Positions 2,598 through 23,677 of a DNA stretch of 36,073 nucleotides are shown here, one piece after another; within the stretch, counting starts at the first letter, position 1; each line of letters begins with the position of its first letter. Under the pieces are notes generated by a model, which was not told where the DNA came from, searched no databases, and saw only the letters and a program-made list of their open reading frames with translations. The translations under genes were made by a program, and so were the position numbers. Source of the stretch: Planctomycetota bacterium (GTDB lineage: Bacteria; Planctomycetota; UBA1135); the NCBI GenBank assembly GCA_027020785.1, contig JALUVI010000159.1, forward strand, positions 1 through 36,073, written 5' to 3'.

Positions 2598-2631
2598 GTC
2601 GTCGAAGGGGTTCGTGGGCTCGGGGAAGGGT

Positions 2632-6300: not shown

Positions 6301-7359
6301 TCAGGTGCGCATCCGGGCGGAGGCCGCCATGCCGAGGCCGCCGAAGAGGCCGAGGGGACCGAGGCCGGCGAGCCACGGCGACAGGGCGCCACGGGTGGCG
6401 AAGTCGCGCAGGACCAGTTCGACGACGAAGGCGAGGGCGCAGAGGCCGAGGCCGCTGGCGAGGCCCTCCAGCGAACTGCGTCGCTCGAAGCGCAGGGCGA
6501 AGGGCAGGCCGAGGGCGAGCAGGACCAGCGGGGCCCAGAGGGCGGCGCGCCAGCTCCAGGCCAGGGTCGCGGCCTGGCGGTGGCCCGGGTCGGCCGCCAG
6601 GAGGGCGCGGCAGTCGGCGACGGTCAGGTCGAGGGGGCGGACGCGGGCGAACCAGGCGCGCTCGCAATCGGCCGGGGCCAGGCCTTCGCGCGAGAAGAGG
6701 CGCAGCGGGCTCTCGCCGCCCCCATCCACCAGGCGGCCGTTCTCGAGCTCCCAGGCGTCTCCGGTCCAGGTGGCGGCGTCGGCGCGGACCAGGCGCTCAC
6801 GCTCGGCGCCCGGCAGGAAGACCTGGAACTCGTGGATGCGCGGCCCGCCGCTGGCGGCCGGCACGAACTCGGCGGCGTGGAGACGGAACCCGCCCGGCGC
6901 CCGCACCCAGAGGTCGGTCGGCTTCCAGGGACGCTGCTCGAGGAGCGGCAATCGCAGCGACTCGTGCGCCGAGCGCAGGCGCGGGAAGCCCAGCTCACGC
7001 AGCTGGCCGAGGGCGAACGCGATGGCGAAGGCGGCGACGAACATCGGCAGGAAGGCGCGCCATGCGCTGCGTCCGGCGACCAGGGCGGGAATCCACTCGT
7101 GATTGCGCAGGAAGCTGGTCACGGTGCCGAGAGCGGCCAGCAGGGTGACGTAAGGGCCGAGCTGGACCAGCAGGAACGGGAGGCTCATCAGGGCGAAACG
7201 GGCGACGTCGGCGGAATCCACGCCGAAGCGCGCGGCCTGCCCGTACTCGTCGGCGTGCCCCAGCATCTCGAGGCTGCTGAACAGGGCCAGCAGGCCGAAG
7301 GCGATGACCGCCCACCACGCGAGGTAGTTGCGGAGGACGTAGCGGTCGTAGCGCTGCAT
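6301..7359 (-). CDS. lptG: LptF/LptG family permease (LptG-like)
   Basis: MQRYDRYVLRNYLAWWAVIAFGLLALFSSLEMLGHADEY... with N- and C-terminal TM bundles. The tracked 745 aa ORF (6301-8538) overextends through the neighbouring gene in the wrong frame; start corrected to 7359, 2 nt after the upstream stop codon. Confidence 0.82.
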   Translation of the reverse strand: MQRYDRYVLRNYLAWWAVIAFGLLALFSSLEMLGHADEYGQAARFGVDSADVARFALMSLPFLLVQLGPYVTLLAALGTVTSFLRNHEWIPALVAGRSAWRAFLPMFVAAFAIAFALGQLRELGFPRLRSAHESLRLPLLEQRPWKPTDLWVRAPGGFRLHAAEFVPAASGGPRIHEFQVFLPGAERERLVRADAATWTGDAWELENGRLVDGGGESPLRLFSREGLAPADCERAWFARVRPLDLTVADCRALLAADPGHRQAATLAWSWRAALWAPLVLLALGLPFALRFERRSSLEGLASGLGLCALAFVVELVLRDFATRGALSPWLAGLGPLGLFGGLGMAASARMRT

Positions 7360-7361
7360 GG

Positions 7362-8468
7362 TCAACGGAGCCGGGAAGCGCCGCGGGAGAGGAGGACGAC
7401 GAGCGGGAGCAGCGCCAGGAAGGGGATCCAGCCGGCGAGGCGCGGCTCGACGGCGTCCGATTCGTAGAGCGCTTCGCCGACGTAGTAGGCGGGGTAGAAG
7501 ACCAGCACCAGGAGCCCCATCGCGGCGCCGAGGCCGGCGAGGAAGCCGCCGCGGCGCAGGCGCCAGCCGATGAGGGCGCCGATGAGCCCGAGCGGAAGGA
7601 GGCAGGCCGACAGGGCGCGGCGCTGGGCGATGGAGTGGAGGGCGCTGCGCTCCTGCTCGGGATCGAGGTCGCCGCGGGCCAGCCGCCGGAGGAGCTCCGA
7701 GGTCGGCAGGTCCTTGGCGCGGTACTCGGGGAGGTTGTTGGCGACGACGCTGGCGAGGTCGAGGACCAGGAAGGTGGTGCCGTCGTTCTGGACCGTCCAC
7801 CCCGCCTCCTCGTCGGTGGTGCTGAAGGCGCGCAGGCCCTCGAAGGAGAAGATCACACGCTCGCCCTCGACACGCAAGCGGGCGCGGTCGGCCAGCACCC
7901 GGAGTTCGCCGACCGCCAGCGGCAGCTCGCGGTCGGGCGAGGCGCCGCGGAACTGGAGGAGGACGTCGCGAAAGGCGCCGTCCTCGTCGCGCCCGTTCCA
8001 GAGCAGGTGGAGCCCGCCGTGGTGGAGTTCGCTCGCCCCCGGCCGCGTGTTCTCCAGGGCGGCGACGCGCACCCGCGCGCCGAGCTCGCGCATCTTGCGG
8101 TAGAGGTCGGGAAGCACCTCGGAGCTGAACGGGTGGAGCGCCGCGGCGGTGAGCGTGCCCAGGAGGGCGGCGGGCAGGAGCAGCCGCGCCGGATGCGCGC
8201 CGGCGGCGAAGGCGGCGACGTGCTCGCCGTCGGCGGCCATCCTCCCGTAGCCGAACACCACCGCGGTCAGGAGCGCCAGCGGCAGGAAGTAGGGCAGGGC
8301 CTGGCCGACGATCAGCGGCACCAGCGACATCGGCAGCCACACCGGGGCACCCTGACTGATGGAGGAGGCCCGAACCAGGCCGCCGAGGCCGATCAGGAAG
8401 GTGACCCCGCCGGTCGTCAGGAGCAGCCTGCCGACGAGTTCCAGGAGGTGGGCGCGGGCGAGCCGCAT
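7362..8468 (-). CDS. lptF: LptF/LptG family permease (LptF-like)
   Basis: MRLARAHLLELVGRLLLTTGGVTFLIGLGG...ALPYFLPLALLTAVVFGYGRMAADGEHVAAFAAGAHPARLLLPAALLG (YjgP/YjgQ hallmark region); start chosen at internal ATG of the 7362-8501 ORF. Confidence 0.85.
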   Translation of the reverse strand: MRLARAHLLELVGRLLLTTGGVTFLIGLGGLVRASSISQGAPVWLPMSLVPLIVGQALPYFLPLALLTAVVFGYGRMAADGEHVAAFAAGAHPARLLLPAALLGTLTAAALHPFSSEVLPDLYRKMRELGARVRVAALENTRPGASELHHGGLHLLWNGRDEDGAFRDVLLQFRGASPDRELPLAVGELRVLADRARLRVEGERVIFSFEGLRAFSTTDEEAGWTVQNDGTTFLVLDLASVVANNLPEYRAKDLPTSELLRRLARGDLDPEQERSALHSIAQRRALSACLLPLGLIGALIGWRLRRGGFLAGLGAAMGLLVLVFYPAYYVGEALYESDAVEPRLAGWIPFLALLPLVVLLSRGASRLR

Positions 8469-8523: not shown

Positions 8524-9456
8524 GTGCACCCCCTCCACGTGCGCGCCCTGGACGTCTGGCGGGACGCCCGCTGCGGCGATCCGCTGCTGTCCGACCTGCT
8601 CGACCGCGCGCTGCGCGGCGAGGGAGAGGTGCTCCGGCTCTCGCCGCGGCGGCTGGTGCTCCGCCTCGCCGACGCCGACGGCGCGCCGTGGGTGCTCAAG
8701 CTGGACGCGCCGCAGCGCCGCTGGGAAGGGGTGCGCCGGCTGCGGACTCCCCCACCCCTGCGCGAGGCTCGGCTCGCGCGGCGGCTCGCAGCGCGGCTGC
8801 CCGAGTTCCCGCCGGCCCGGGCCGCGAGCGCGGGACGAGGGCGCTCACTCCTGGCGCGCCCCTTCGTTCCGGGCGCCGACGCGGCCCGGACCGCGCTCGA
8901 GGCGCCCGAAGCGGTGGCCCACGGGCTGGCCCGTCTGCACGAGCTCGGCTGGAGCGACGACGACCTGAAGGCCGAGGACCTGTTGTGGACGCCGACCGGG
9001 GCGCTCCTGCCGATGGACCTCGGCCGCGCGCGGCTCCACGGCGGAGCGACCCCGGAGCGCCGGCGGCGCGGCGACCGCATCCGACTCCTGGCCTCCCTCC
9101 CCCCTGCCACGGCCGCACGGCTCGCCGCCCCGGTCCTCGACGCAGCCGGGTCGCGCGACGACCCCGAGGAACTGCTCGTCGCCGCGGGCACGCGGCGCGA
9201 GCGGGCGCTGCGCCGCCAGGCGCGACGCGCGCTCCGTGAGAACCGCGACTTCCGCCTCCGCCCGGACGGCGGCATCGAGCGCCGCGAGCCGCCCGACGGC
9301 ATCGAGGAGGTCCACCTGCTCGGCCGCCGCGCCGCCCGGGCGCTGTGGCTGCGTCGCTACGAGGACGAACTCCACGGCCGCCCCGGGCCGCGGGTCGTCG
9401 CCCTGACGCCGCGCGCCGACGGCTGGGCCGTGGTCCTGCGACGGCCTGCGGGCTAG
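8524..9456 (+). CDS. Lipopolysaccharide (Kdo/WaaP-type) kinase-like protein
   Basis: GTG start; LHELGWSDDDLKAEDLLWTPTGALLPMDLGRARL resembles the catalytic loop / metal loop of LPS kinases (xDL...N..(I/L)..DFDRAR); VLKLD beta3-like Lys. Divergent from lptFG. Confidence 0.6.
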   Translation: MHPLHVRALDVWRDARCGDPLLSDLLDRALRGEGEVLRLSPRRLVLRLADADGAPWVLKLDAPQRRWEGVRRLRTPPPLREARLARRLAARLPEFPPARAASAGRGRSLLARPFVPGADAARTALEAPEAVAHGLARLHELGWSDDDLKAEDLLWTPTGALLPMDLGRARLHGGATPERRRRGDRIRLLASLPPATAARLAAPVLDAAGSRDDPEELLVAAGTRRERALRRQARRALRENRDFRLRPDGGIERREPPDGIEEVHLLGRRAARALWLRRYEDELHGRPGPRVVALTPRADGWAVVLRRPAG

Positions 9457-10799
9457 AACGGCCGCGACGCGCGCATCCGCGCCAGCAGCTCCATCGAGAG
9501 CGCCAGGAAGAGGCCGCCCGCGAGCCCGGCGATGGTGCAGAACAGGTAGAGGCCAGCGGTGGTCGGCACCTGCTTGGCCCTCTCGGGACGGGCCCGCATG
9601 GCGTCGGTCATCACCGAGAAGTCGAGCCCGGCGCGGACGTGGAAGTCGAGCTCGCTGCGCCGCGAGGCCACCTTCTCCCAGTACGAACGCGCGGAGGCCA
9701 GATGGCTCTGGCGCTCGGCGACCTCGGCGCGATAACTCGGCACCCGCTGCAAACGTGGCTCGATCTCGGCGATGCGCTGCGCCCACACCGCACGTTGGGC
9801 GTCGTAGCTGGCTTCCACTACGTCCATCGCCGCCAAACGGCGCATCCATTCCGTGACCTGGGCGTCGCGGGTGGTGACCTCGGAGTCGAGCCGCATCTGC
9901 TCCTCGGCGAGCTCCTCGGCCTCGCGCTGCACGACCTCGAGCTCTCGCTGCAGGCGCTGGATCTCGGGGTGGACGTCGCGGTATTCCAGCCGCGCCACGG
10001 CGAGCTGGGCCGAGAGGTCCCGCGCCCGGGCCAACAGCTTGTCGAACGCGTCGTTGCGCTGGAACTTCCGCAACGAAGTCAACATCTCCGGACGCTCGGC
10101 CAGCGCCGCCTCGAGCACCGGACGCTCGGCCTGCCCCTTGACCCGATGGAGCTCCAGCTGCAGCAACTGCTCCTCGACCTTGCGCCGCTCGGTCAGGAGT
10201 TGGGCCGTCTCGCTGTCGAGGTCCACGGTGTCGATGCTCGCGAGATAGTCCACCAGCGCCTGATGGGCCTCGCGGTACCTCTGCTCCGCCAACGGCTCCT
10301 CGCGGACGAAGGCCTCGAAGGAACGCCGCAGCGATGCCAACGTGATCTCCTCGAGCTCGGCCTGGAAGGCCTCGGCGTAGTCGTTGGCGAGCTCCGCCGC
10401 GAGTTCCGGCGTCGGCGCGTAGGCCAGGACCTGGATGTTGCCGCCGCGGTCGATGTTGCCGCGGATCGCCTTGCGCAGGGCCCGCGGGTCGTAGTCGGGA
10501 TGCTCCGCGGCCATCCGGTCGTAGACCGCTCCGCTGGCGAAGATGCCGAGCGCGCCGACCCGCGCATCGTCCGAGAGATCGGGAAGGAGCGGCCCCTTGG
10601 GCAGGTTGCCGCCCTCGGTGGACAGCGAGATGCCCACCGGGTCGTTGGGGATCATCACCGAGGCCGCAGCCACGTAGTCCGGACCGACCAGACGCGCGTA
10701 GAAGGTCCCGGCGAGCAGCGAGCCGACCAGGACGAGGACGATGGTGAGCCGACGCCGGTAGAGGGCGCCGAGCAGCGAGCCGAGGGTCTCTTCCGGCAT
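9453..10799 (-). CDS. Polysaccharide chain-length determinant (Wzz/GumC-type), no BY-kinase domain
   Basis: MPEETLGSLLGALYRRRLTIVLVLVGSLLAGTFYARLVGPDYVAAASVMIPND..., long coiled coil, C-terminal TM AGLYLFCTIAGLAGGLFLALSMELLARMR. Confidence 0.85.
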   Translation of the reverse strand: MPEETLGSLLGALYRRRLTIVLVLVGSLLAGTFYARLVGPDYVAAASVMIPNDPVGISLSTEGGNLPKGPLLPDLSDDARVGALGIFASGAVYDRMAAEHPDYDPRALRKAIRGNIDRGGNIQVLAYAPTPELAAELANDYAEAFQAELEEITLASLRRSFEAFVREEPLAEQRYREAHQALVDYLASIDTVDLDSETAQLLTERRKVEEQLLQLELHRVKGQAERPVLEAALAERPEMLTSLRKFQRNDAFDKLLARARDLSAQLAVARLEYRDVHPEIQRLQRELEVVQREAEELAEEQMRLDSEVTTRDAQVTEWMRRLAAMDVVEASYDAQRAVWAQRIAEIEPRLQRVPSYRAEVAERQSHLASARSYWEKVASRRSELDFHVRAGLDFSVMTDAMRARPERAKQVPTTAGLYLFCTIAGLAGGLFLALSMELLARMRASRPF

Positions 10800-10800
10800 G

Positions 10801-12306
10801 TCAGGCTGGGGTCGGTCGAGGGGGCGGCAGGAAGATCAGGTCGTCGGGATCACGCCCGGTCTGGTTGCGGGAGACCATGTACACGACCTCCATCAGGATC
10901 ACCATCAGCCACAGGAATCGCACCCAGAGGAACATCACGAAGGCGTTCTGGATGAGGATGACGACGAAGGCGAGCGAGATGCCGAGGACCCAGTCCCGGT
11001 CGAAGGAGAAGCGGCTGGTCAGGTAGGTCTTGGTCAGGTGCCAGACCACCAGCCCCATGAAGGAGCCGAAGGCGAGGACTCCGAACAACCCCATCTCGGC
11101 GAGCACCTGCTTGTAGGTGTCGTGGACCTGGAGTCGCCAGGGATTGTAGTAGTCCAGGATGCCCATCGTGCCGATGCCGAACCACGGGTGCCGCGAGAAG
11201 GCTTCGATGGCCAGGTGGTCGATGCGCCAGCGGAAGTCGGCCGAGGCCTTCTGCAGGTTCTCGACCGCGTGGTAGGTCGCCTCCAGCAGTCCGGTCTTCC
11301 AGCCGATCGCCGCCGACAATCCGAGGGCCATGAGGTAGAGCGGGGCCAGGCGCGGGAACCGGAACACCGGCACCACCATCGAGGCCAGGCCGAGGGCGAG
11401 CCAGCCGGAGCGGGAGAAGGTGAACAGGACCCCGAGCGCCAGCCACACGTAGGCCGAGAGGTAGAAGACCCGCTTGCCCAGGGAGAGCGCCCGACGCGGC
11501 CGCAGGCCGAACCAGAGCGCCAGCACCGCCAGGGTGGAGATGCAGTTGGACTGCAGGTTGGGGTGGATCTGGAGGCCGGTCAGCCGCGGGAAGGTGCCGA
11601 AGGAGGTGGTGACCTTGTCGTACGCCGTCTCGCCGGCGAGGAAGGTGATCGGTCGGTGGGCGACGGCCGAGAGCGCGAACTGCCCCCACTCGACGGCCAC
11701 CGAGATGCAGGCCGAGACCAACAGGAAGTGGAAGAAGATCTCGAGCTGACGCCGGGTGCGGATGATCGCCGGCAACAGGGCGACGATCAGGAAGTTGGCC
11801 GTCAGACGATAGCCGAAGGTCGGGATGATCGGCAGGAACTCGTTGGTCAGGACGAAGGTCGTCGCATAGCTGATCAGGATCAGGAGCGCCGGCAGCATCA
11901 GCAGCGTCGTCGGAAACGGCATGTCGCCATGACGCAGGATGCGCTGCGCCAGGAGGAGGAGCAGCAACAGCAGGCCGGCCTGGGACAGGACCGGGAAGGC
12001 CTCGGCGACGAAGGAGAACGCGATCAGGCCGAGGACCGGCCGGTCGAGGGAGCCGCTCTTCAGGACCCAGGCCACGAAGCCGGCGAGGGCGAGCAGGAGG
12101 CCGACGAGCCCGAGGCTGGGCAGGAACGGAAGGTCGTCCACCAGGGGCAGCTCCGGGCCGAACAGATCGATCTGGAGGCGCAGATGGAGGCGACCGTCCA
12201 TCCACACCAGCCACCCCACCAGGGCGCCGAAGGCGAGCCCCGCGGCGCCGGCCAGGACCCGGCCGAGCGGCCCCCAGTCCTGGAGCGGAAGCGACCGGTC
12301 AGTCAT
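10801..12306 (-). CDS. O-antigen ligase / Wzy-type polymerase, multi-TM
   Basis: About 12 hydrophobic segments; periplasmic-loop motif RWRIDHLAIEAFSRHPWFGIGTMGILDYYNPW...VHDTYKQVLAEMGLFGVLAF typical of the Wzy_C/O-antigen ligase family. Confidence 0.87.
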   Translation of the reverse strand: MTDRSLPLQDWGPLGRVLAGAAGLAFGALVGWLVWMDGRLHLRLQIDLFGPELPLVDDLPFLPSLGLVGLLLALAGFVAWVLKSGSLDRPVLGLIAFSFVAEAFPVLSQAGLLLLLLLLAQRILRHGDMPFPTTLLMLPALLILISYATTFVLTNEFLPIIPTFGYRLTANFLIVALLPAIIRTRRQLEIFFHFLLVSACISVAVEWGQFALSAVAHRPITFLAGETAYDKVTTSFGTFPRLTGLQIHPNLQSNCISTLAVLALWFGLRPRRALSLGKRVFYLSAYVWLALGVLFTFSRSGWLALGLASMVVPVFRFPRLAPLYLMALGLSAAIGWKTGLLEATYHAVENLQKASADFRWRIDHLAIEAFSRHPWFGIGTMGILDYYNPWRLQVHDTYKQVLAEMGLFGVLAFGSFMGLVVWHLTKTYLTSRFSFDRDWVLGISLAFVVILIQNAFVMFLWVRFLWLMVILMEVVYMVSRNQTGRDPDDLIFLPPPRPTPA

Positions 12307-14143
12307 CCGAATCCCCGTCGGGCTCCTCGGCGCCCCAGGAGAGCTCGACCATCACCGCCGAGAAGGGCGGCACCTTGAGCTCCATCGTGCCCTCCACGGG
12401 CACCCGGACCCACTGCGAGCGGTCCACCGGAGCCGGGAAGGTGGCAGGATGCCGAATCAGCTCCGCAGGCAGCTCGTCCTGGAGCCAACGTGCGTGCTTC
12501 TCGAAGAGGTCGCGGACCCGACGCCGCGTGTCGGCGTCGAGCGCGTCCAGGGGCTGGAGGGACTTCTGCTCCAGGGCCTTGCCCACGGCATCGAGGACGC
12601 TGGGGTCCGCCCCGCCGCGCTCCAGGTCCTGCAGGGTCATCTCGGCGGCGTTCGGGAACCAGCCGCGTTCGAACGGCTCCACCCGCTCGCGGAAGGACGC
12701 ATCGTCGCGCGGATTGCCCCGCTGCCGATCGATCACCCACACCCCGACGACGTGGGCCGGGGCGTCCTCCAGGCGCAGGGTCAACCAACGCTCCTGGGCC
12801 GACTTCTCGCGGGCCAGCGCCTTCATCTCCCGCCGAACCCGCTCCCAGACCGGCTTCTGCCGCTGGGGCAGCCCGGTCCGGTCGTAGGGCACGCGCCCCG
12901 TCACGTAGCCCTGGATGGCGCGGTCCTGCCCCTTGAGCGAGGTCGGGTCCACCCCCAGCCACTCCACCAGCTTGCGCATGTGCTTCTCCTGCTTGCCGAA
13001 CAACGAGGTCGCGACGAGGAAGCCGCGGTCGCCCTCGCGGGTGGCGAGGACTCCGAAGTTGGGGGTGACTTCGTCCGTGTACTCCACCGGGACCGCGGGC
13101 AGCGCTCCGGCCCGCCGCGCCATGCGCATGCCGGCGAGGACCGACTTCGGCAGGCCGTGGATGGTGAAGACCCCGACCGACTGGCCGGCGTAGTCGCGCT
13201 TGGCCTCCCAGGTGCCGTCCTGGAGCATGAAGAACAACGAATGCTTCACCGGCGAATAGGCCAACGCGGTGGTCATGGCGACGAAGTTGACCGCGGCGCG
13301 GTGGTCGTCCAGCGACAGGTTGACCGGCGACGGCAGACCGATGTTCCACTCGGACAGCACCAGCTCGGGCATCGGCAGGTTGCGCGAGCGCACGATGTCC
13401 CGCACCTTGCGCGCCGTCGAGTAGTGGAACTCGTCCATCGGGAAACCGTTGTACTCGTGCCACGACAGGAAGTCGGGCTGGAATCCGACCTCGACGCAGG
13501 CGTCGGCGATCCGACGGAACAGCCGCAAGCCGCCGCCGAAGTTGCTCGCCATGCTCGGCCCGCCGATGCGGACGTCGTCGGAGACGAGCGGTCGCAGGGC
13601 GGCGCCGGCCTCGGCGAAGAAGCGCGCGAAGCTCTCGGGGTCCCCGCTCCAGTTCTTCGGCAGATCGGGCTCGTTCCAGATCTCGAGGTACTCGACTGCG
13701 AAGCCCTTCTCCTGGAACCGCCGTACGTCCCGCGCCACCTGCCGGACCCAGCGCTGGGGATCGGGGGCGCGCAGCGGATCGTCGGGGGACGGCTTCATCC
13801 GGACCTCGGGATCGCCGAGGAAGGTCAGGTACAACCCGAGCCCCGCGGCCCGAGCCTGCTCCGCGGCCTGGAAGTGGCGGTCGTTGAGCTTGCCCAGGTG
13901 GTACTGGACCCAGATCCGCACCACGCCGTCCTCCGGCTGGACGGCCTCCCGCCACGCCTTCCACACGCCGGGAGAGGCGTTCTGGAGGTCGTTCAGCCCG
14001 GTGAGCACGCCGGGGGCGATGGGCGTGCCGGGCTGGTCGAACCGGACCACCACTTCGGGCTCCTGGGCGGCGGGCGCGGCGGCGGCAACGGCCAACCACA
14101 CCGCCAGGGCGGCACGGGGGAGGGAGAAGCGGGACATGGCCAC
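12299..14143 (-). CDS. GH39-like glycoside hydrolase (PslG-type), secreted
   Basis: Signal peptide MAMSRFSLPRAALAVWLAVAAAAPAAQ; YLEIWNEPD (acid/base Glu) and ELVLSEWNIGL (nucleophile Glu) in a TIM-barrel-type protein. Confidence 0.75.
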   Translation of the reverse strand: MAMSRFSLPRAALAVWLAVAAAAPAAQEPEVVVRFDQPGTPIAPGVLTGLNDLQNASPGVWKAWREAVQPEDGVVRIWVQYHLGKLNDRHFQAAEQARAAGLGLYLTFLGDPEVRMKPSPDDPLRAPDPQRWVRQVARDVRRFQEKGFAVEYLEIWNEPDLPKNWSGDPESFARFFAEAGAALRPLVSDDVRIGGPSMASNFGGGLRLFRRIADACVEVGFQPDFLSWHEYNGFPMDEFHYSTARKVRDIVRSRNLPMPELVLSEWNIGLPSPVNLSLDDHRAAVNFVAMTTALAYSPVKHSLFFMLQDGTWEAKRDYAGQSVGVFTIHGLPKSVLAGMRMARRAGALPAVPVEYTDEVTPNFGVLATREGDRGFLVATSLFGKQEKHMRKLVEWLGVDPTSLKGQDRAIQGYVTGRVPYDRTGLPQRQKPVWERVRREMKALAREKSAQERWLTLRLEDAPAHVVGVWVIDRQRGNPRDDASFRERVEPFERGWFPNAAEMTLQDLERGGADPSVLDAVGKALEQKSLQPLDALDADTRRRVRDLFEKHARWLQDELPAELIRHPATFPAPVDRSQWVRVPVEGTMELKVPPFSAVMVELSWGAEEPDGDSDD

Positions 14144-14163
14144 AGCCTACCGCTCGCCCGCCC

Positions 14164-15825
14164 TTATTGGATGTAGCCCAGACCGCGCAACGATTCTTCG
14201 ATGGCCTTGGACTGCTCCTCGCTGAAGGCCTCCTCCAGGCCTTCGCCGGCGGACGGTTCCGGCGACTCGTCCCAGACCGGCGCGCCGGGCTCGGCCAGGA
14301 CCTCGCCGCGAATGGCCCCGTCCATCCAACGCGGCACGGCCTCGCCCACCGCATAGAGCAGGGTCGGCGTGGTGTCGCGGATGTGCATGTCCTCGATGGT
14401 GCGTCCGGCGGCCACCCCCGGCCCGGCCAGGGCGAAGATGCCGGGGAACCGATGCTGCCCGCTGATCGGTGCGTTCTTGCGCCGGACGAAGAGGTCGCGC
14501 GTGCCCCAATCCTCCTTGGGGATGCAGGTCAGCCCCAGCATCTGGTACTGGAGGTCGGGCGCCTCGGCGGTGCGCGGCCCGTCGTAGAACGACTCCTTGA
14601 CGACGGTGTAGTCCACGGCCGGACGACCGTCCGGGCCCTGCAGCGCCTGCAGGCGCTGGACGATCTCGGCCAGCACCTGGCGATAGCCCTCGCCCTGGGG
14701 GACGATGCCCTCGGGCTCGCGGCCTTCGAGGTTGACGCAGATGCCGTGGAGCTGGGCGAACGCCCGGGTCTTCGACCACACCACGTCGCCCTGGTCGGGC
14801 ACGGTCTTGCGTTGCGGCCGGCCCAGCGGCAGCCGCGCCAGCGGGCCGAGGAGGCGGGCCAGCCCGCCGAGCCCGAGCCGCCCCAGGACGCGGCCGAGGT
14901 CGGTGCCCTTCCAGCGCCAGTACGGGGTCTTGCGCCGCACCAGGAACCCCTCCTCCTCGAGCCACTGGTTGACGTGGAAGTCGAGGTGCTGGGGGCCGAA
15001 ACCGTGGTCGCTGACCAGGGCGATCGGGGTGTCGTCGCCGACCAGGTCGCGCACCCGCCCGACGAATTCGTCGGCCAGCCGGTAGGCGTCGCGGATGACC
15101 TCGCCGTAGCGGCGCTCGCCCTCCTCGGTCCAGCCGGCGTGGCTGCGGTCCTGGAACTTCCAGAAGTAGTGCTGGGCGCGGTCGGTGACCGACACCACGG
15201 TGAAGAAGAAGTCGGTCGGGTGCTCCCGCAGGTAGTGCTCGACCAGGCGCAGGCGGTCGCGCTCGATGTCGAACAGCTCGTCCCGCAGCCGCGCATAGAG
15301 CTCCAGGTCGTCGCGCTCGCCCTCGGTGTCCCCGTCGTACGGCCCGTAGTCGACGTCGGGCCGGTAGGGGTGACCGAGCACCTGCTCCATCCGGTCGGTC
15401 GTGCCCGGCGGCCAGGCGATGGTGTCTCCGGTCAGGGGCATCGGAATGCCGCTGACCATGTAGCCGCCTTCCACCGGGAACGGCGGATAGGTCATCGGCA
15501 CCGACAGCGCCCCCACCGTCCACTTCCGCTTGGACAGCAGGCTCATCACGTCCTTGCCGGCGTAGTGGCGGCTGTCGTTGAGCTCGACCTCGTAGGTGCC
15601 GAGCTTGCGCCGCACGAAGTGGAAGATGCCGTGCTTGCCCGGATTGAGTCCGGTGAACATGGAGGTCCACGCCGGCGGGGTCATCGGCGGGGTCTCCGAA
15701 TACAGCTCGCCCGACGCCCCCTCGCGGAGGATGCGGGCGATGTGGGGGAGCTCTCCCGCCTCCACCATGGGGCGGATGACGTCGAAGGTGGCTCCGTCGA
15801 TGCCGACGATGGCGAGGCGGGTCAT
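14164..15825 (-). CDS. Alkaline phosphatase superfamily (type I phosphodiesterase/nucleotide pyrophosphatase-like) protein
   Basis: MTRLAIVGIDGATFDVIRPMVEAGELPHIARILREG...PPMTPPAWTSMFTGLNPGKHGIFHF...LVSDHGFGPQHLDFHVNQWL...ISGQHRFPG; ends LRGLGYIQ. Start corrected from 15939 to 15825. Confidence 0.9.
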   Translation of the reverse strand: MTRLAIVGIDGATFDVIRPMVEAGELPHIARILREGASGELYSETPPMTPPAWTSMFTGLNPGKHGIFHFVRRKLGTYEVELNDSRHYAGKDVMSLLSKRKWTVGALSVPMTYPPFPVEGGYMVSGIPMPLTGDTIAWPPGTTDRMEQVLGHPYRPDVDYGPYDGDTEGERDDLELYARLRDELFDIERDRLRLVEHYLREHPTDFFFTVVSVTDRAQHYFWKFQDRSHAGWTEEGERRYGEVIRDAYRLADEFVGRVRDLVGDDTPIALVSDHGFGPQHLDFHVNQWLEEEGFLVRRKTPYWRWKGTDLGRVLGRLGLGGLARLLGPLARLPLGRPQRKTVPDQGDVVWSKTRAFAQLHGICVNLEGREPEGIVPQGEGYRQVLAEIVQRLQALQGPDGRPAVDYTVVKESFYDGPRTAEAPDLQYQMLGLTCIPKEDWGTRDLFVRRKNAPISGQHRFPGIFALAGPGVAAGRTIEDMHIRDTTPTLLYAVGEAVPRWMDGAIRGEVLAEPGAPVWDESPEPSAGEGLEEAFSEEQSKAIEESLRGLGYIQ

Positions 15826-15879
15826 GGGGGTGCCCGGACCGGGGCCGGGGGGGAGGGTCGGGGCCGCCCTCCCCCCCAT

Positions 15880-15907
15880 TTGACCCTCACCGCGATTCCG
15901 GGACAAT
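15880..15907 (+). promoter_or_regulatory. Candidate sigma70-type promoter for the wza-like gene
   Basis: TTGACC (15880-15885), 16 nt spacer, GACAAT (15902-15907), 38 nt before ATG 15945. Confidence 0.4.
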
Positions 15908-15944
15908 AGGGGCGGCTCCGGTTCCGGCGGGAGCCCCACATCCG

Positions 15945-16724
15945 ATGCCGTCCGCCCTCTTCCGTCTCCTCACGCCCACCCTGCTCCTCCTGGCGCTGGG
16001 CTGCTCGATGTCTCCGCACGCGGAGGGCCCCGACCTCGGCAGCAATCCCGACCTGCTCGGCCCGAACGTGACCCCAGAGGTCCAGTACGGCCAGTTCTTC
16101 GTCGGCCCCGGCGACCAGGTCCGGCTCGACTTCCTGCGCCACGAGGAGCTCAACAAGCAGTACCGGGTCCGTCCCGACGGCACCCTCTACTGCCACCTCG
16201 TCGGCCCGGTGGCGGCCAGTGGGATGACCCAGGAGGAACTGCGTGACCTGCTCGCCGAACGCTACGGCGAGTACCTGGTGAACCCGAGCCTCTACCTCGA
16301 GGTCGAGTACTCGCCGTCGCGCAAGGTGGCGGTCCAGGGCTACGTGGACAAGCCGAGCGTGATCTCGCTGACCGATCCGCAGACCACGGTGCTGGACGTG
16401 ATCGCCCTGGCCGGCGGCGTCTCCGAGGAGGGCGACAAGACCGCCATCCTGATCGCGCGGCGCGTGGAGGGGAAGGTGCAGGTCCGCCACTACGACATGG
16501 AGGCCCTGTTCGCCCCCGACGACCCCGAAGCGCGGGTCGAGATCCCGTACGTCCAGCCGGGCGACTACGTGTACGTGCTGCGGACCTGGCAGGGCCGATT
16601 CGACGAGGAGGTCTCGCGCTGGACCGAGCTGCTCCGCGGCGTGGCCTTCCTGGAGCGCGACCTGCTGAACGCACCGCGGGCCACCGAGGCGCTGCAGGGC
16701 GACTTCAGCGAGGACAACTTCTAA
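15945..16724 (+). CDS. Polysaccharide export lipoprotein (Wza-type, poly_export/SLBB)
   Basis: MPSALFRLLTPTLLLLALGCS lipobox; FFVGPGDQVRLDFLRHEELNKQYRVRPDGTLYCHLVGPVAASGMTQEELRDLLAERY; SLBB-like KVAVQGYVDKPSVISLTDPQTTVLDVIALAGGV. Confidence 0.92.
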   Translation: MPSALFRLLTPTLLLLALGCSMSPHAEGPDLGSNPDLLGPNVTPEVQYGQFFVGPGDQVRLDFLRHEELNKQYRVRPDGTLYCHLVGPVAASGMTQEELRDLLAERYGEYLVNPSLYLEVEYSPSRKVAVQGYVDKPSVISLTDPQTTVLDVIALAGGVSEEGDKTAILIARRVEGKVQVRHYDMEALFAPDDPEARVEIPYVQPGDYVYVLRTWQGRFDEEVSRWTELLRGVAFLERDLLNAPRATEALQGDFSEDNF

Positions 16725-17983
16725 CCGAGCCAGAGGCGGCGGTCGGCGCCCGAGGCGCGGAACGCCGCCAGGTAGTCGGCGGCGGGGAGCACCCAGAAGC
16801 TCTCTGCGTAGTCGGCGCCGTCGCGGTCGCGCGCATGCCAGCGGGCGAGTCCGTGCTCGACCCGCAGGTAGTCCACTGCGGCGAGCTGCGAACGATAGGC
16901 GCGCACCGCCTCGTCCTTGCGCCGCCGCATCCCGGCGTCGAGCGGCAGGAGCGCGCGGCCGGGCAGCGGCGCCCACACTCCGCACACGGCGAGGGTGACG
17001 TCGCCGTACCCCGTCGGCAGCGCGGCGCGCAACAGGCGTGACACCTCGTAGTGGTCCACGTGGTCGTCGGCCCACCACACGAGGTGGATGCGGTCGGGGT
17101 CGAACTCGGCGATCAGGTCGTGGAGCCGACGGCGCCACGGGCCGCGGGCGCGCAGCCGCTCCTCCGGAGCGCCCAGGAAGTGGAGGTCCGAGACGCCGAG
17201 CACGCGCATCGCAGCCTCGCCTTCGGCGCGGCGGATGCGGGCTGACTCTTCGGGGGACGCATCGGGAACGCCGCGCGCTCCGTCGGTGAGCCAGACCACG
17301 CGGACCTCGGCGCCGGAGGCCATCGCCGCGAGCATGGCGCCGCCGGCCTGCAGGGACTCGTCGTCGTAGTGGGGCGACAGGACGAGCACGCGCCGCGCCG
17401 GCGGCAGGACGTCGGGGCCGGGGCGGGATGCGACCGCCTCCAAGGCGCGCTGGTGGTCGTGGGCCGTGACCAGGAAACGGCGGTGGACCAGGTCGCCGAG
17501 CGGCCCACGCTTCGGTGGGCGTCGCCCGGAGAGCAGGAGGTCGAGGCGCCGCGCGTCGAGGACCTGATAGGCCTCGGCCAGGCCGCGGCCGCCGTGACGG
17601 AAGGCCGAGCGGTAGGCGCGCAGCCCCTCGGCCGGGGTGGCCGGCTCAGCGGCGCCGTCGCCGCCGTCGTGGACCAGCAGGTTGGGCCACACCGGGACGT
17701 CGCGTTCGTAGAGGACCACCGGGGTCGCGGGCGGGACCTCGGCGAGCGCGGCCCGCAGCGAGGCGACGCCGTCCCCCGGCTCGGGGGCGGGCGCGAGGAG
17801 GGCGTCGTAGTCGGCGCCGGGCACCCACGGCAGGACCTCCTCGGCGGCGGCCAGCGCGGTCGGGGCCCACTCTTCGGGGCTGCCGTGGAGGAAGGCGAGG
17901 CGCCGCCAGGGCAGCGCGCGCGCGACCGCCGGGACCTGGATCAGGTTCCGGGGCCGGCGGATGGGGACCGGGAGCCTCGGCAC
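16721..17983 (-). CDS. PIG-L/LmbE-family deacetylase with an extra N-terminal region of about 195 aa
   Basis: RRVLVLSPHYDDESLQAGGAMLAAMASGAEVRVVWLTDG...WWADDHVDHYEVSRLL; metal-binding H-DD...H motifs retained. Confidence 0.85.
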   Translation of the reverse strand: MPRLPVPIRRPRNLIQVPAVARALPWRRLAFLHGSPEEWAPTALAAAEEVLPWVPGADYDALLAPAPEPGDGVASLRAALAEVPPATPVVLYERDVPVWPNLLVHDGGDGAAEPATPAEGLRAYRSAFRHGGRGLAEAYQVLDARRLDLLLSGRRPPKRGPLGDLVHRRFLVTAHDHQRALEAVASRPGPDVLPPARRVLVLSPHYDDESLQAGGAMLAAMASGAEVRVVWLTDGARGVPDASPEESARIRRAEGEAAMRVLGVSDLHFLGAPEERLRARGPWRRRLHDLIAEFDPDRIHLVWWADDHVDHYEVSRLLRAALPTGYGDVTLAVCGVWAPLPGRALLPLDAGMRRRKDEAVRAYRSQLAAVDYLRVEHGLARWHARDRDGADYAESFWVLPAADYLAAFRASGADRRLWLG

Positions 17984-17993
17984 GCCGGCCAGC

Positions 17994-19664
17994 CTACTCC
18001 ATGTAGCCCAGGGCCTTCATCGTCTCGAGGATGCGGGCGTCGTCGTCCTGATCGGCCTCGCCAAAGGGCCGCGGTCGGAGCTCGATCCGCCCCTCGTTCA
18101 CCCGGACCGGGTTGCGCTCCAGGTAGCCCGGCGCGAAACAGCCCTCCATCACGCGCCCGTCCATGTAGTCCTCGACCGGCAATCCCAGCAGGTGGAGGAT
18201 GGTCGGCGCCATGTCGGCGATCTGCGGGCCGGCGACGCGCTCGCCCGACCGGAAGACTCCTTCACCCTCCCAGCCGTAGATACCGGTGACGCGATGCATC
18301 GCGGGCCGTCCCTCGACCGCCTCCTCGGCGACCACGGGGTGGACCGGCGACGGCGACATGTTGCAGGCCGTGTCCACGGTCAGGCATTGGATGTCGGGCG
18401 CGACGTGGAGCTGCGGGCCCTCCCAGAGCTCCTCGCGGCGGAAGGCCTGCGAGACGATGCGCGCGCCATCGGGGGCGCGCATGCCGGGCAGTTTCTCGAT
18501 GATCTCGTCGCGCAACCGCTCGTACTCCTCGCCGGGCTCGACGATGCCCTCGGGCTGACGTCCCTTGAGGTTGATGAGGACGATGTCCTCGCCGCCGGAG
18601 AACGACGAATAGGCGCGGGTCTTCGACCAGTCGATCATGTCGTGGATGATCTGCTCCTGGCTCGGCAGCTTGTGGCCGCGGCGGGTCATCGCCTTGAGCA
18701 GGCCGGTGCGCCGGAGCAGCCCCTGCCACTTGCGTTGGGTCCAGAGCCGGAACCGCTGCCAGCTTGCGCCGCCCTTCAGCACCAGGTAGCCCTGGTCCAC
18801 CAACCACTTGTTCATGTAGTAGCGGTAGGTGATGCGCCCGAAACCGTGGTCGCTGCAGGTGCCGAAGGCGACTTCGCCGTCGAGCGTCTTGGCCTTGTCG
18901 CGGATGCGCCCGAAGGCGGCGTCCACCGCCTCGTACACCTGGGCCAGGAGTTCGGCCCGCGACTCCCACTTGCCGGGGTTCTTGGCCTGCCACTCCGGAT
19001 CCTGGTAGCACCAGGCCTGGTGGCTGGCGAGGTCCACCTGACGATAGACGATGGCGAACAGGTCGGGGTCGTAACGGTCCAGGACGTACTCGCCGATCCG
19101 CGTGATCTGCTCGATGACGTGGTAGAGGCTGGCCACGGCCTCGTCCTCGCCGGCGGTGTGGAACAACATCTCCGGCTCGTTGTCGGCGGGGACGTCGCCG
19201 ACGGCGGCCTCGAGCTCCTGACGCAGTTCGGGCGGGTGGATGAAGTCGCTGTGGCGGTCGGGCGTGAGCAGCCCTCCGACCATGCAGCCGTTCACGTCCT
19301 CGACCGGGAAGGTCAGCGGCACGGTGATGACGCACACCTTCTTGCCGGCGTCGCTGGCCAGGCGCCAGATGCTGGGGGCCTGGACCGAGTCCCAGGACAC
19401 CACCGGTCGGTGGTAGGTGCCGGGGCGCTGCTCGCGGAAGAAGAAGATGCCGTGCTTGCCGGGGTGGACGCCGGTCTGGAAGCTGGTCCAGGCCAGCGAC
19501 GAGTTCGGCGGCAGGGTGCTCTTGAGGGGCCCCGTGGTGCCCTCGCGCATCATGGCGGCGAGGTTGGGCAGTCGGCCCTCGTCGACCATCGGTTCGATGA
19601 TCTCCCAGGTGGCGCCGTCGATGCCGGCGAAGACGACGCGTTTGCGCTTGGAGGACTCGGACAT
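17994..19664 (-). CDS. Alkaline phosphatase superfamily protein (second cytoplasmic copy)
   Basis: MSESSKRKRVVFAGIDGATWEIIEPMVDEGRLPNLAAMMREGTTGPLKSTLPPNSSLAWTSFQTGVHPGKHGIFFF...GTCSDHGFGRITYRYYMNKWLV; ends MKALGYME. Start corrected; the tracked 1299 aa ORF overextends. Confidence 0.9.
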   Translation of the reverse strand: MSESSKRKRVVFAGIDGATWEIIEPMVDEGRLPNLAAMMREGTTGPLKSTLPPNSSLAWTSFQTGVHPGKHGIFFFREQRPGTYHRPVVSWDSVQAPSIWRLASDAGKKVCVITVPLTFPVEDVNGCMVGGLLTPDRHSDFIHPPELRQELEAAVGDVPADNEPEMLFHTAGEDEAVASLYHVIEQITRIGEYVLDRYDPDLFAIVYRQVDLASHQAWCYQDPEWQAKNPGKWESRAELLAQVYEAVDAAFGRIRDKAKTLDGEVAFGTCSDHGFGRITYRYYMNKWLVDQGYLVLKGGASWQRFRLWTQRKWQGLLRRTGLLKAMTRRGHKLPSQEQIIHDMIDWSKTRAYSSFSGGEDIVLINLKGRQPEGIVEPGEEYERLRDEIIEKLPGMRAPDGARIVSQAFRREELWEGPQLHVAPDIQCLTVDTACNMSPSPVHPVVAEEAVEGRPAMHRVTGIYGWEGEGVFRSGERVAGPQIADMAPTILHLLGLPVEDYMDGRVMEGCFAPGYLERNPVRVNEGRIELRPRPFGEADQDDDARILETMKALGYME

Positions 19665-19699
19665 GTTGGGGGGAGCGCCGGGGACGACGGCCCGCCATT

Positions 19700-21238
19700 C
19701 TAGGAGGAGCCGCGGCGACGCCCGGGCAGACGCTCGAGCAGGGCCGGGTCGGCGAGGCCGAGGAGCAGCGTTGCGGCGACGTAGAGCGACGCCGCGAGCG
19801 GCAGGCCGAGGATGGGTCGCTCGGCGAGCCCCAGGGCGAAGGCCGCGGCGACGGCGGCGGCGGCGAGGCCGAGATGGGGCAGGGTGCGCAGGAAGATGGG
19901 CAGCGGATTGCCGAGGAGGCGGGCGACGATGCCGACCTTGAGGAGGAACTCGACCGAGGAGGCGCCGAGGGCGGCCCAGGCGGCGCCGAGGAGGCCGAAG
20001 CGCGGCACCAGGACGAGGTTGAGGACGAGCGAGGTCGTGAGCAGGGCGGCGCCGATCCAGGGGATGCGGCGCTCCAGGTCGCGGACGCCGAGCATCAACA
20101 TGCCGACGGGGCCGCCGACGGCGTCGAGGGCGACCGCCGGGAGGAGGACGCGGAGGACGTCGGCGGTGCCGTGGGTGAGCCCGGCCTCGGGGATGCCGAA
20201 GCGGTAGGCCGGACCGAACCAGCCGGCCACCGGGGCGGCCCAGGCCCACAGGGCGACCGCGAGGGGGAGCGCCCACCACGCCTGCCAGCGCACCGCGCGT
20301 TCGTACTGGATGCGGGCGCCGCCGAGGTCGCCGCCCTGCTCGGCGCCCTGGGTGAGTCGAGCGAAGCGCGGGAAGACGGCGGTGTTGAACGCCATCGTCA
20401 TGGTGTGGAACAGCAGCGCGACCCGAACCGCCTGCACGTAGAGACCGCGCGCCTGGTTGGGGTCGGCGGCGGGTGCGTAGGCGAGGACGAGGACGCCGAG
20501 GATGACGACGTCGAGGCGGTTGCGCAGCATGCGCAAGACCCGGAACACCGCGATGGCGCCGCTTTGGCGGATCATGGCCAGGCCCTGGGCCAGGCGGGCG
20601 GAGAGATGCGAACGCGGCGGGAGGGCGCCGAGGAGGAGGCGGCGGCGCAGGAGGCGGGGCAGGAGCCAGGCGCGAAGGGTCGAGCCGATCAGGAAGCAGA
20701 CGAAGATGCCCTCCAGTCGCCAGCGCTCGGGCAGGACGACGAGGGCGAGCATGGCGCCGCCGGCGCGGAAGGCGCCGGTCTGGATCTCGATGAGGGCCGG
20801 CAGCGCCATGCGTTCGAACCCCTGGAAGACGGCGTCGGCGACCGAGCCCAGGCCTTCGGCCAGGACGATGGCCATGCCGATCGCGAACAGGACGAGGAGG
20901 CGCGGGGTGAGGTCGTCGGTGTAGAGGCCCTCCCCCACCAGCCAGGCGCCGAGGACCAGGACCGAGAGGCCGACTCCGAGGAAGACGGCGCTGCGGCCGG
21001 CGGCGTGGACGGCGGCGGCGCGGTCGGGGTGGCGCGCGACCTCTCGGGTCAGGACCAGGGGGACGCCGAAGCTGGCCAGCATGCCGCCGAAGAACATCAG
21101 CGACATGAGGTAGCCGTAGAGGCCGTTCTCCTCGACGCGGACGAAGACCGGGAGGAGGAAGCCGAGGGCGGCGTAGATGCCGACCGAGAAGGTCTTGGCG
21201 ACCGTCAGGAACAGCGTGTTGCGGGCGAGGGAGGCCAA
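19700..21238 (-). CDS. Flippase / polysaccharide biosynthesis membrane protein (Wzx/MOP superfamily)
   Basis: MASLARNTLFLTVAKTFSVGIYAALGFLLPVFVRVEENGLYGYLMSLMFFGGMLASFGVPLVLTREVARH; about 12-14 TM segments, 512 aa. Confidence 0.88.
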   Translation of the reverse strand: MASLARNTLFLTVAKTFSVGIYAALGFLLPVFVRVEENGLYGYLMSLMFFGGMLASFGVPLVLTREVARHPDRAAAVHAAGRSAVFLGVGLSVLVLGAWLVGEGLYTDDLTPRLLVLFAIGMAIVLAEGLGSVADAVFQGFERMALPALIEIQTGAFRAGGAMLALVVLPERWRLEGIFVCFLIGSTLRAWLLPRLLRRRLLLGALPPRSHLSARLAQGLAMIRQSGAIAVFRVLRMLRNRLDVVILGVLVLAYAPAADPNQARGLYVQAVRVALLFHTMTMAFNTAVFPRFARLTQGAEQGGDLGGARIQYERAVRWQAWWALPLAVALWAWAAPVAGWFGPAYRFGIPEAGLTHGTADVLRVLLPAVALDAVGGPVGMLMLGVRDLERRIPWIGAALLTTSLVLNLVLVPRFGLLGAAWAALGASSVEFLLKVGIVARLLGNPLPIFLRTLPHLGLAAAAVAAAFALGLAERPILGLPLAASLYVAATLLLGLADPALLERLPGRRRGSS

Positions 21239-21241
21239 GCT

Positions 21242-21976
21242 TCAGACGCGGCTTCCACCGAACAGGGGCAGCAGCGTGCCTTCCAGTTTGCGGTAGAGGT
21301 CGGCGGTGGCCCGGGTGTCGCGCAGGCAGTACTCGGCGATCTCGTCGTAGCGCCCTTCGCGCGCCTTCTCGGCGACCTGGGAGCCGTCCATGCGCCCCTT
21401 GGGCGATTCCACGCCGAAGCGGCGGCACCAGAAGTCGAGCGAGTAGCTGGGGCGGGCGGCGCCGTGGAAGTCGAGGACGTCCATCAGGTCGCAGTGTTCG
21501 TCGATGCGGTAGCGCTGGCCGGCGAGGTGGCGGGTCGGGGCGATGCCGAGGATGGCCGAGCGGGTCATCAGCACCGGGCCGTCGTAGGAGCGTCCGTTGA
21601 AGGAGACGATGGTGCCCCAGCTCGAGGCCAGCTTCCAGAACTCGCGCAGGATCTCGGTCTCGTTGCCGCGGTGGATCTTGGTGCCGGGGATCTCCTCGAA
21701 CGGCTCCCACTTGGCGCCGCTGCCCTGGGACAGGACGGCTCCGGTGTCCTTGTCCAGGTTCCACATCCCGATGGCGACCACGCGCCCGAGGCCGCGGACC
21801 AGGGCGAGGCGGTGGCGTACGTTCTCGGCGTCTTCGGCGTTCTTCTCGCGCGCCATGAGGTAGTGGCGCGTGGCTTCGTCGAGCTCTTCCCACTCGAGGC
21901 CGGCGACCTCGATGTCCACCGCGACCACCGGCCGGCGGACCGGCGCGCTGCGCATCGGAGGCGGAGCGTCGGTCAT
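21242..21976 (-). CDS. Predicted 3'-5' exonuclease, PolB-type RNase H-like fold
   Basis: VVAVDIEVAG ... WGTIVSFNGRSYDGPVLMTRSAILGI ... CDLMDVLDFHGAARPSYSLDFWCRRFGVESPKGRMDGSQV...EYCLRDTRATADLYRKL (DEDD-type exonuclease motifs). Confidence 0.85.
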   Translation of the reverse strand: MTDAPPPMRSAPVRRPVVAVDIEVAGLEWEELDEATRHYLMAREKNAEDAENVRHRLALVRGLGRVVAIGMWNLDKDTGAVLSQGSGAKWEPFEEIPGTKIHRGNETEILREFWKLASSWGTIVSFNGRSYDGPVLMTRSAILGIAPTRHLAGQRYRIDEHCDLMDVLDFHGAARPSYSLDFWCRRFGVESPKGRMDGSQVAEKAREGRYDEIAEYCLRDTRATADLYRKLEGTLLPLFGGSRV

Positions 21977-22452
21977 TCCTCGAGGTCGGGGACGTCGCCC
22001 TCGTGGACCGTCAGCACCGGGACGCGGGCCATACGGACCACCTTCTCGGCGGTGGAGCCGAGCAGGACGTGGGCGAGCCCGCTGCGCCCGTGGGTGGCGA
22101 GCACGATCACGCTGCACTCGAGCTCGGTCGCCGCCTCGACGAGCACGTGCGAGGGTTTGTTGCCCTCGAGCAGGTGCGTCTCCACCTCGGCCCCGAGCGA
22201 TCGCACCTTGTCGGCGGCCTCGGCAAGAGCCTTCTCGGCGCCGCGACGGAACTCCTGGCGATAGACCCCGAGGTCGAGGGCGCCGGGTTCGACGTAGTGC
22301 GCGAAGATGGGCGCGCTGGCGACGAGGTCGTCCTCGAGGACGTGGGTGAGGACGACGACCCCCTTCCCGAGCTGGGCGAGCCGGGCCGCCCAGGGGTAGG
22401 CGGCTTCGCTGGCTTCGGAGAAGTCGGTGGAGAGGAGGATGCGGCGGAACAC
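21973..22452 (-). CDS. Universal stress protein (UspA family, ATP-binding type)
   Basis: VFRRILLSTDFSEASEAAYPWAARLAQ...VIVLATHGRSGLAHVLLGSTAEKVVRMARVPVLTVHEGD (G2xG9xGS-type loop). GTG start at 22452 is my choice; ORF is open in frame further upstream into the insertion element. Confidence 0.88.
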   Translation of the reverse strand: MFRRILLSTDFSEASEAAYPWAARLAQLGKGVVVLTHVLEDDLVASAPIFAHYVEPGALDLGVYRQEFRRGAEKALAEAADKVRSLGAEVETHLLEGNKPSHVLVEAATELECSVIVLATHGRSGLAHVLLGSTAEKVVRMARVPVLTVHEGDVPDLEE

Positions 22453-22570: not shown

Positions 22571-23677
22571 GTGCGCTTCGAACCTCCCTTCTGCCCCAAC
22601 CCGACCTGCGCCAGCCGAGCCCGGGAGGGCTCCTTTCGCTACCGACGCATCGGCACGTACCGCCGCAGCACCGACGGCCGCAAGGTCCAGCGCTTCCTGT
22701 GCCGGACCTGTCGGCGCAGTTTCTCCACACAGACCTTCCGGCTGGACTACCGCTTCAAGCTGCCCCATCACGACGTCCTCGTCTTCAAGGCGCTGGTCTC
22801 GAAGGTCACGCAGCGGCAGGCCGCGCGAATGCTCGGCATCGACCGCAAGAGCATCCAACGCCGCATCCGACGTTGGGGGCCGGCGATGCGCGCGCTCCAC
22901 GAGGCCGCCCTCGAATCGGCCGCCCGCCGCGGGGGTCTGAACGGCACCTACTGCCTCGACGAGCTCGAGACCTTCGAACGGAACCGACGCCTGATGCCGG
23001 TCACCGTTCCCTTCCTCGTCGATGCCAACCGCTTCTTCGTCGTGGGCGTGGAGGCCGACACGCTCCCCGCCCGCGGCAACCTCCGGGCGCGGGACCGCGT
23101 GCGGAAACTCCAGCTGGAGCAGGAGTTCGGACGACGTCGCAACCACTCGAAACGAGCCGTCGGTACGGTGCTCCGGGCCTGGGCCGAAGCCCACTCCCCC
23201 GAGCTGACGCCGCGCCTGATCTCGGACAAGAAGTCGAGCTACGGAAGGCTCTACCTGGAGGCCTTCGGGGGCCGCCGACGCGAACACGTCCGGGTAGCCT
23301 CTTGCGCCACCCGCAACCGCAGCAATCCGCTCTTCCCGGTCAACCATACGCTGGCCATGGCACGGGACCAGGTGTCGCGCCTGGTGAGGCGGAGTTGGGG
23401 GGCGAGCAAGTGCCGCCACCGGCTGCGCGACCACCTCTGGGTCTGGGTGGCGTGGCGGAACTACGTACGCCGTCTGACGAATCGGACACCAGGCGTGACG
23501 CCGGGCACGGCCGTCGGGGCGGCCCGCCGGATGGCGACGATCAGCGAACTCCTGAAGTGGAGGTGGCCGAAACGGATGCTACCTGCGTTCCTCGTCCCGC
23601 CTCGCCACACGAAAGGGGGCCAGTTTCCGGGGCGGGGGGGCGGTGGGCCTCACTCCTCGGTCTCCCCTCCCACGTAA
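22571..23677 (+). CDS. IS1/InsA-like zinc-ribbon transposase-like protein
   Basis: FCPNPTCASR...RRSTDGRKVQRFLCRTCRRSFSTQTFRLDYRFK zinc ribbon; VTQRQAARMLGIDRKSIQRRIRRWG HTH; TYCLDELETFE and LISDKKSSYGRLYLEAF acidic motifs; NHTLAMARDQVSRLVRRSWGASK C-terminal region. Confidence 0.8.
   Translation: MRFEPPFCPNPTCASRAREGSFRYRRIGTYRRSTDGRKVQRFLCRTCRRSFSTQTFRLDYRFKLPHHDVLVFKALVSKVTQRQAARMLGIDRKSIQRRIRRWGPAMRALHEAALESAARRGGLNGTYCLDELETFERNRRLMPVTVPFLVDANRFFVVGVEADTLPARGNLRARDRVRKLQLEQEFGRRRNHSKRAVGTVLRAWAEAHSPELTPRLISDKKSSYGRLYLEAFGGRRREHVRVASCATRNRSNPLFPVNHTLAMARDQVSRLVRRSWGASKCRHRLRDHLWVWVAWRNYVRRLTNRTPGVTPGTAVGAARRMATISELLKWRWPKRMLPAFLVPPRHTKGGQFPGRGGGGPHSSVSPPT
23606..23633 (-). repeat. Right terminal inverted repeat
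   Basis: CACACgaaaggGGgCCAGTTTCCGGGGC; reverse complement of the left repeat with a mismatched middle. Confidence 0.8.

Follow-up and report, generated by a model that had tools for sequence, protein, structure and literature searches.

Wzx/Wzy pathways are not always encoded in one place. In Myxococcus xanthus, components of such a pathway lie in separated gene clusters (eps together with MXAN_1025-1052/MXAN_1915; PMC7484181), and in Pseudomonas aeruginosa the Psl locus carries the gene for a GH39-family hydrolase, PslG (PMC11912335). Here we analyse a 36,073 bp stretch of DNA from a Planctomycetota bacterium (the window, below), in which Wzx/Wzy-type flippase, polymerase and export genes are found with genes for two paralogous members of the alkaline phosphatase (AP) superfamily, designated AP1 and AP2. 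The best explanation as a whole, which we regard as fairly probable, is a Wzx/Wzy pathway split between loci, with its glycosyltransferases (GTs) supplied in trans and with AP1 and AP2 as dedicated phosphoesterases. That AP1 and AP2 are members of such a pathway is quite likely; that they act as phosphoesterases on its precursors is a possibility that we put forward with some doubt. In an incomplete coverage of the literature, we found nothing linking AP-superfamily enzymes to Wzx/Wzy loci.

The locus resembles the split loci of M. xanthus in comprising Wzx, Wzy_C, polysaccharide co-polymerase (PCP) and outer-membrane polysaccharide export (OPX) proteins and in the separation of its clusters (PMC7484181), but differs in that the GTs and initiating enzyme lie wholly outside the assembly cassette, in a PCP without a match to any kinase domain, and in the presence of two cytosolic AP enzymes within the cassette. 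As Psl has PslG, this locus has a putative GH39-family hydrolase gene among polysaccharide assembly genes; the GH39 match is weak, however, and neither Psl gene order nor Psl-type GTs are seen, although no dedicated comparison with Psl was made.

The assembly and export cassette

The window is the entire contig C159 of a draft genome (2.47 Mb, 270 contigs). Eight genes, each supported by Pfam and scoring well as coding sequence, lie at positions 9453-21238 and encode Wzz, Wzy_C, GH39, AP1, Wza, PIG-L, AP2 and Wzx proteins, in agreement with a preliminary description of this DNA. This cassette, which is flanked by genes for a PolB-exonuclease-like protein (exoPolB) and for two LptF/LptG permeases (LptFG), is probably the flip, polymerise and export half of a Wzx/Wzy-dependent surface-polysaccharide pathway. 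Two operon-like runs, Wzx-AP2-PIGL and AP1-GH39-WzyC-Wzz, occupy the minus strand with intergenic gaps of -8 to +35 bp, whilst the plus-strand Wza gene is divergent from AP1, with ~120 bp separating the two.

The Wzx-type flippase (19700-21238) matches PF01943 (50.8 bits) and has ~10 transmembrane (TM)-like segments, as does the Wzy_C protein (10801-12306; PF04932, 55.5 bits). The Wzy_C domain is common to polymerases and ligases and cannot tell them apart. The Wza-type OPX protein (15945-16724, plus strand) matches PF02563 (65.7 bits) and SLBB, and has a lipoprotein-like N-terminus. The PCP is represented by a Wzz-like protein (9453-10799) whose PF02706 score (24.3 bits) falls slightly below the cut-off of 25.5 and whose TIGR03007 score (51.9 bits) is far below that model's cut-off; TM-like segments are present towards its N- and C-termini (at residues 17 and 414), its orthologues are conserved, and no kinase domain match was seen. 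The GH39-like glycoside hydrolase (12299-14143) has a signal-peptide-like N-terminus and matches PF01229 over ~93 residues only (28.2 bits, cut-off 26). The PIG-L deacetylase (16721-17983) matches PF02585 (91.4 bits) at residues 200-321, and its structural model (predicted local distance difference test score, pLDDT, 88) finds diacetylchitobiose deacetylases and their relatives as fold matches. Residues 1-190 form a conserved alpha/beta N-terminal domain for which Pfam yields nothing, even with E values relaxed to 5; we considered whether this might be a hidden GT and rejected the idea, hhalign comparison with the GT2 and GT4 families of the same genome also giving probabilities of <1%. The AP1 (14164-15825; PF01663, 126.5 bits) and AP2 (17994-19664; PF01663, 110.4 bits) genes are distributed one to each run, as had been noted previously.

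Glycosyltransferases and the initiating transferase

Domain scans of the window proteins identified no GT and no PF02397 initiating transferase, as first described, but since the window is a whole contig of a draft genome this is partly a limit of the assembly. The rest of the genome has six PF00535 matches, 12 PF00534 matches, of which one scores below that model's cut-off, and a single PF02397 protein; none of these is on the contig of the window. Contig C4 carries a Wzz2-GT2-GT4-GT4-GT4 cluster together with an alginate_exp barrel gene and genes for two small membrane proteins (91 aa and 106 aa), with genes such as FtsK close by, whilst the sole PF02397 protein is encoded on C224. No Wzx, Wzy or Wza was found among the scanned C4 proteins.

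The same GT cluster was recovered from relatives, and both GT cluster and initiating transferase are present in every cassette-bearing relative tested. None of the PF00534, PF00535 or PF02397 matches listed for those relatives lies in the conserved block around the AP genes: among these matches, the closest GT that shares a contig with the block lies ~16.5 kb away from AP2 in one relative (G025) and ~17 kb away from the AP1 unit in another (G016), the distance being at least 35 kb in several others. A GT cluster directly adjoining the block is thus not seen in the relatives, nor in the window's own genome as far as the contig ends.

The preliminary description saw the AP enzymes as standing in place of GTs. 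The lack of any GT in the window, or of a detected one in the corresponding block of those relatives for which it was retrieved, would fit with functional replacement, but the missing GTs are encoded elsewhere rather than replaced: the same genomes have a conserved GT cluster and initiating transferases, and AP homologues adjoin GTs in other organisms (see below). We therefore consider replacement to be extremely improbable. What survives of the proposed variant Wzy-dependent system is a Wzx/Wzy assembly and export set that includes AP1 and AP2. Having the GTs and initiating transferase on other contigs makes this a less typical locus without weakening the assignment to the pathway, because split pathways exist.

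Presence, absence and relocation across the family

With some variation, the family shares a conserved block: M10/TIG-AP3-Usp-exoPolB, then Wzx-AP2-PIGL-Wza-AP1-GH39-WzyC-Wzz, then LptFG-TPR-CN hydrolase-thiolase-HCDH. Six genomes (G002, G008, G009, G011, G012 and G019) keep the flanks as far as their contigs reach but lack the Wzx-AP2-Wza-AP1-GH39-WzyC-Wzz core. In a tree of exoPolB, a single short gene, these six form two groups among the cassette-bearing genomes, which suggests two losses of the cassette. AP1 and AP2 vanish along with it, whilst AP3, a further AP-superfamily protein encoded beyond exoPolB, remains.

The pattern of absence extends to the GT cluster. Of the 26 family members, 20 have an orthologue of the C4-type GT2, and all of these except G018 (84% complete) also have AP1, making 19 genomes with both; no genome has AP1 only (Fisher p 3e-5, uncorrected for relatedness). 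The remaining six, lacking both, are the same six that have no cassette. A physical link between the loci is provided by Wzz2 and the 91-aa and 106-aa membrane proteins. This trio accompanies the GT cluster in the window's own genome and in G001, G005, G007, G014, G017, G018 and G020 (and partly in G013), but in G003 and G016 its homologues are found directly beside the Wza gene of the Wza-AP1 unit instead. Where the Wza/GH39/WzyC/Wzz unit relocates, AP1/AP2 move with it. Co-occurrence, shared absences and the relocated trio together point to one pathway distributed over two loci, which would make one polymer.

An alternative is that the C4 GTs make some other glycan, with the cassette either drawing on scattered GTs or, if Wzy_C is an O-antigen ligase, serving lipopolysaccharide (LPS) O-antigen next to LptFG. 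The LptFG genes do adjoin the cassette, the Wzy_C domain would fit a ligase as readily as a polymerase, GTs are present on further contigs, and C4 has its own Wzz2 and barrel gene. Set against this, the six genomes without GT2 also have no AP1, the trio relocates between the loci, LptFG persists after cassette loss, and a dedicated OPX protein favours export over LPS. We judge this alternative unlikely.

Could AP1 and AP2 be bystanders? The genome has 24 PF01663 matches, so AP-superfamily proteins are in themselves unremarkable here, and the window encodes three more that were not mentioned in the preliminary description. The position of AP1 and AP2 is conserved, however, and their loss with the cassette while AP3 stays, their movement with the relocating unit, and the recurrence of out-of-family homologues near wz and GT genes make it very unlikely that they are passengers in an AP-rich genome; the earlier view that they belong to the locus is borne out.

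Several points weigh against a split pathway that includes AP1 and AP2. The co-occurrence test ignores relatedness and uses draft genomes. G020 has no AP2 although Wzx and PIG-L are present, so AP2 is dispensable or replaceable. The count of Wzx and Wzy covers the window and the scanned C4 proteins rather than the whole genome, in 12 of the 28 distant AP regions described in the next section neither a GT nor a wz gene was detected nearby, and that one polymer comes from two loci is something that we infer rather than observe.

Variation in the block takes other forms too. In G020 (L102), AP2 is absent exactly between PIG-L (805-2070) and Wzx (2092-3633); G013, of the same genus, retains it. 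In L087-L092 (G024, G025 and G021), Wza-AP1 is kept in the block while GH39, WzyC and Wzz are not found there. A second AP1 paralogue with 50-53% identity to AP1 is encoded on another contig in L103, L104 and L106 (G006, G021 and G025); in the first two of these loci, a gene for a BNR-repeat-like protein lies near it. Cassette-less G002 (L197, from 10940) and G009 (L201, from 1099) encode a short PIG-L protein (268-273 aa), lacking the N-terminal domain, right after exoPolB.

AP homologues outside the family

Among 392 genomes sampled across the phylum, the window's own family included, 73 have a strong AP homologue (E at most 1e-70). In regions from other families, a GT is present within a ~20-kb stretch in 15 of 28 and a wz gene in 10 of 28, compared with none of 12 control stretches for either (one-sided Fisher p 0.0009 for GT and 0.015 for wz); the controls, few in number, come from a subset of the same genomes, and the regions are non-independent, seven of the 28 being from a single family (f45). 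A random placement of AP homologues relative to wz genes, which would have told against the original proposal, is therefore not what is seen, although distant homologues often lack such neighbours.

In several f45 genomes (other Planctomycetota), the order Wza-Wzx-AP-AP-PIGL-GT4 is seen, and in an Armatimonadota genome GT2-GT4-GT4-GNAT-AP-unknown-Wzx. The f45 clusters (such as L128, from G339, isolate H5_AMX3) are like the window's cassette in having two or three tandem AP paralogues together with Wza, Wzx and PIG-L, and unlike it in that GT4 genes adjoin the AP genes. The tandem f45 proteins are not one-to-one orthologues of AP1 and AP2, an arrangement that we considered and that the tree does not support.

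AP1 and AP2: sequence, structure and likely class

AP1 and AP2 are 30-33% identical to one another and, as recognised at the outset, neither has a signal peptide; nor do they have any TM-like segment. The AP2 proteins of relatives are 54-76% identical and come from Planctomycetota metagenome-assembled genomes, with one exception labelled uncultured bacterium. Across an alignment of AP1, AP2 and distant homologues, the metal ligands (D10, D215, H219, D273, H274 and H458 in AP1 numbering) are invariant and the nucleophile position is always threonine or serine (T49 in AP1, S55 in AP2), these positions being what we take to be the equivalents of those in known NPP/PhnA enzymes. The structural model of AP2 has a mean pLDDT of 73, with low confidence at residues 55-95, near the active site. 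Its fold matches include phosphonoacetate hydrolase (PhnA) and nucleotide pyrophosphatase/phosphodiesterase (NPP) with a probability of 1.00, though the TM-score to the query is only ~0.4. AP1 and AP2 are most likely NPP/PhnA-type phosphoesterases that use two metals and reside in the cytosol.

The likeness to PhnA and NPP extends to weak sequence matches for both proteins, but identity over the fold alignment is ~11-15%, AP1 and AP2 are ~150 residues longer, and in both the SDHG motif is followed by a cationic segment that is conserved. The net charge of this segment is +6 to +13, compared with -28 to +1 for the whole proteins (the AP2 rows of G021, G024 and G025, where an earlier SDHG was picked, were left out of this analysis). 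The idea that it forms an amphipathic membrane-binding helix was discarded, its hydrophobic moment not being exceptional.

AP-superfamily enzymes work via a covalent phospho-enzyme that some members transfer, and PIG-N belongs to PF01663. AP1 and AP2, with their threonine or serine nucleophile, might accordingly decorate the repeat unit with a phospho-substituent, acting as phosphotransferases instead of hydrolases. The bacterial AP-superfamily transferases known to us are, however, membrane-anchored and periplasmic, whereas AP1 and AP2 have no TM segment, and their nearest solved relatives by both sequence and fold are hydrolases, making a transferase role improbable.

A proposed pathway

Whilst the gene content and linkage of the split pathway are well supported, its chemistry is what we infer from them. 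The PF02397 transferase on C224 would probably initiate the repeat unit, and the C4 GT2-GT4-GT4-GT4 enzymes would build it in trans in lipid-linked form, with PIG-L deacetylating an N-acetylated sugar. Wzx would then flip the unit, Wzy_C and Wzz polymerise it and Wza export the polymer, which GH39 may trim, or GH39 may clear stalled chains. Prior to flipping, AP1 and AP2 may act on some phosphate-bearing precursor of the glycan at the cytoplasmic membrane face, our best guess at the substrate being a sugar-phosphate, a nucleotide-sugar or a polyprenyl-linked intermediate.

More speculatively still, cytoplasmic NPP/PhnA-type AP enzymes might be a regular but undescribed component of Wzx/Wzy systems, both in Planctomycetota and in one or more further phyla, where they would edit, proofread or phospho-decorate lipid-linked units before these are flipped. 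Were AP1 and AP2 to act on lipid-linked or nucleotide-activated units, they would add an enzymatic step to the standard Wzx/Wzy scheme, and their genes would serve to flag polysaccharide loci in Planctomycetota. The division between assembly cassette and GT cluster means that annotation by neighbourhood only would label the locus incomplete, and it offers two concrete loci that can be traced through the family for shared gain and loss.

Flanking and neighbouring genes

The exoPolB gene (21242-21955, minus strand; PF10108, 62.9 bits) is a conserved flank marking one edge of the cassette. It is outside the polysaccharide pathway and is also present in cassette-less relatives. At the other edge lie the two LptF/LptG permease genes (6301-8468, minus strand; PF03739, ~115 bits each), likewise conserved and kept in the absence of the cassette. 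Between these and Wzz, a conserved gene (8524-9456, plus strand) encodes a kinase-like protein with weak protein-kinase matches; the possibility that this might be a phosphate-adding partner of the AP enzymes is weakened by its presence beside LptFG in cassette-less G009 and G012. The G009 homologue weakly matches Kdo/WaaP kinase.

The further AP-superfamily proteins of the window are AP3 (23650-25029) and AP4 (25034-26380), encoded in tandem on the minus strand, and a sulfatase-like protein at about 29276-31279. Unlike AP1 and AP2, AP3 and AP4 have lipoprotein-like N-termini, and AP3 was rejected as a pathway member because it stays in cassette-less genomes. A Leu-Gly-Tyr motif is found at or near the C-terminus of all four proteins (AP1-AP4), and does not vary in AP1, AP2 or their distant homologues. 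Between Usp and AP3 lies a transposase-like ORF (22571-23677, plus strand), which begins with a zinc-ribbon-like stretch and gives weak matches to helix-turn-helix domains. Homologues with 65-66% identity are encoded on contigs C4 and C211 of the same genome; relatives have no copy at that site, and thus the ORF looks like a recent insertion.

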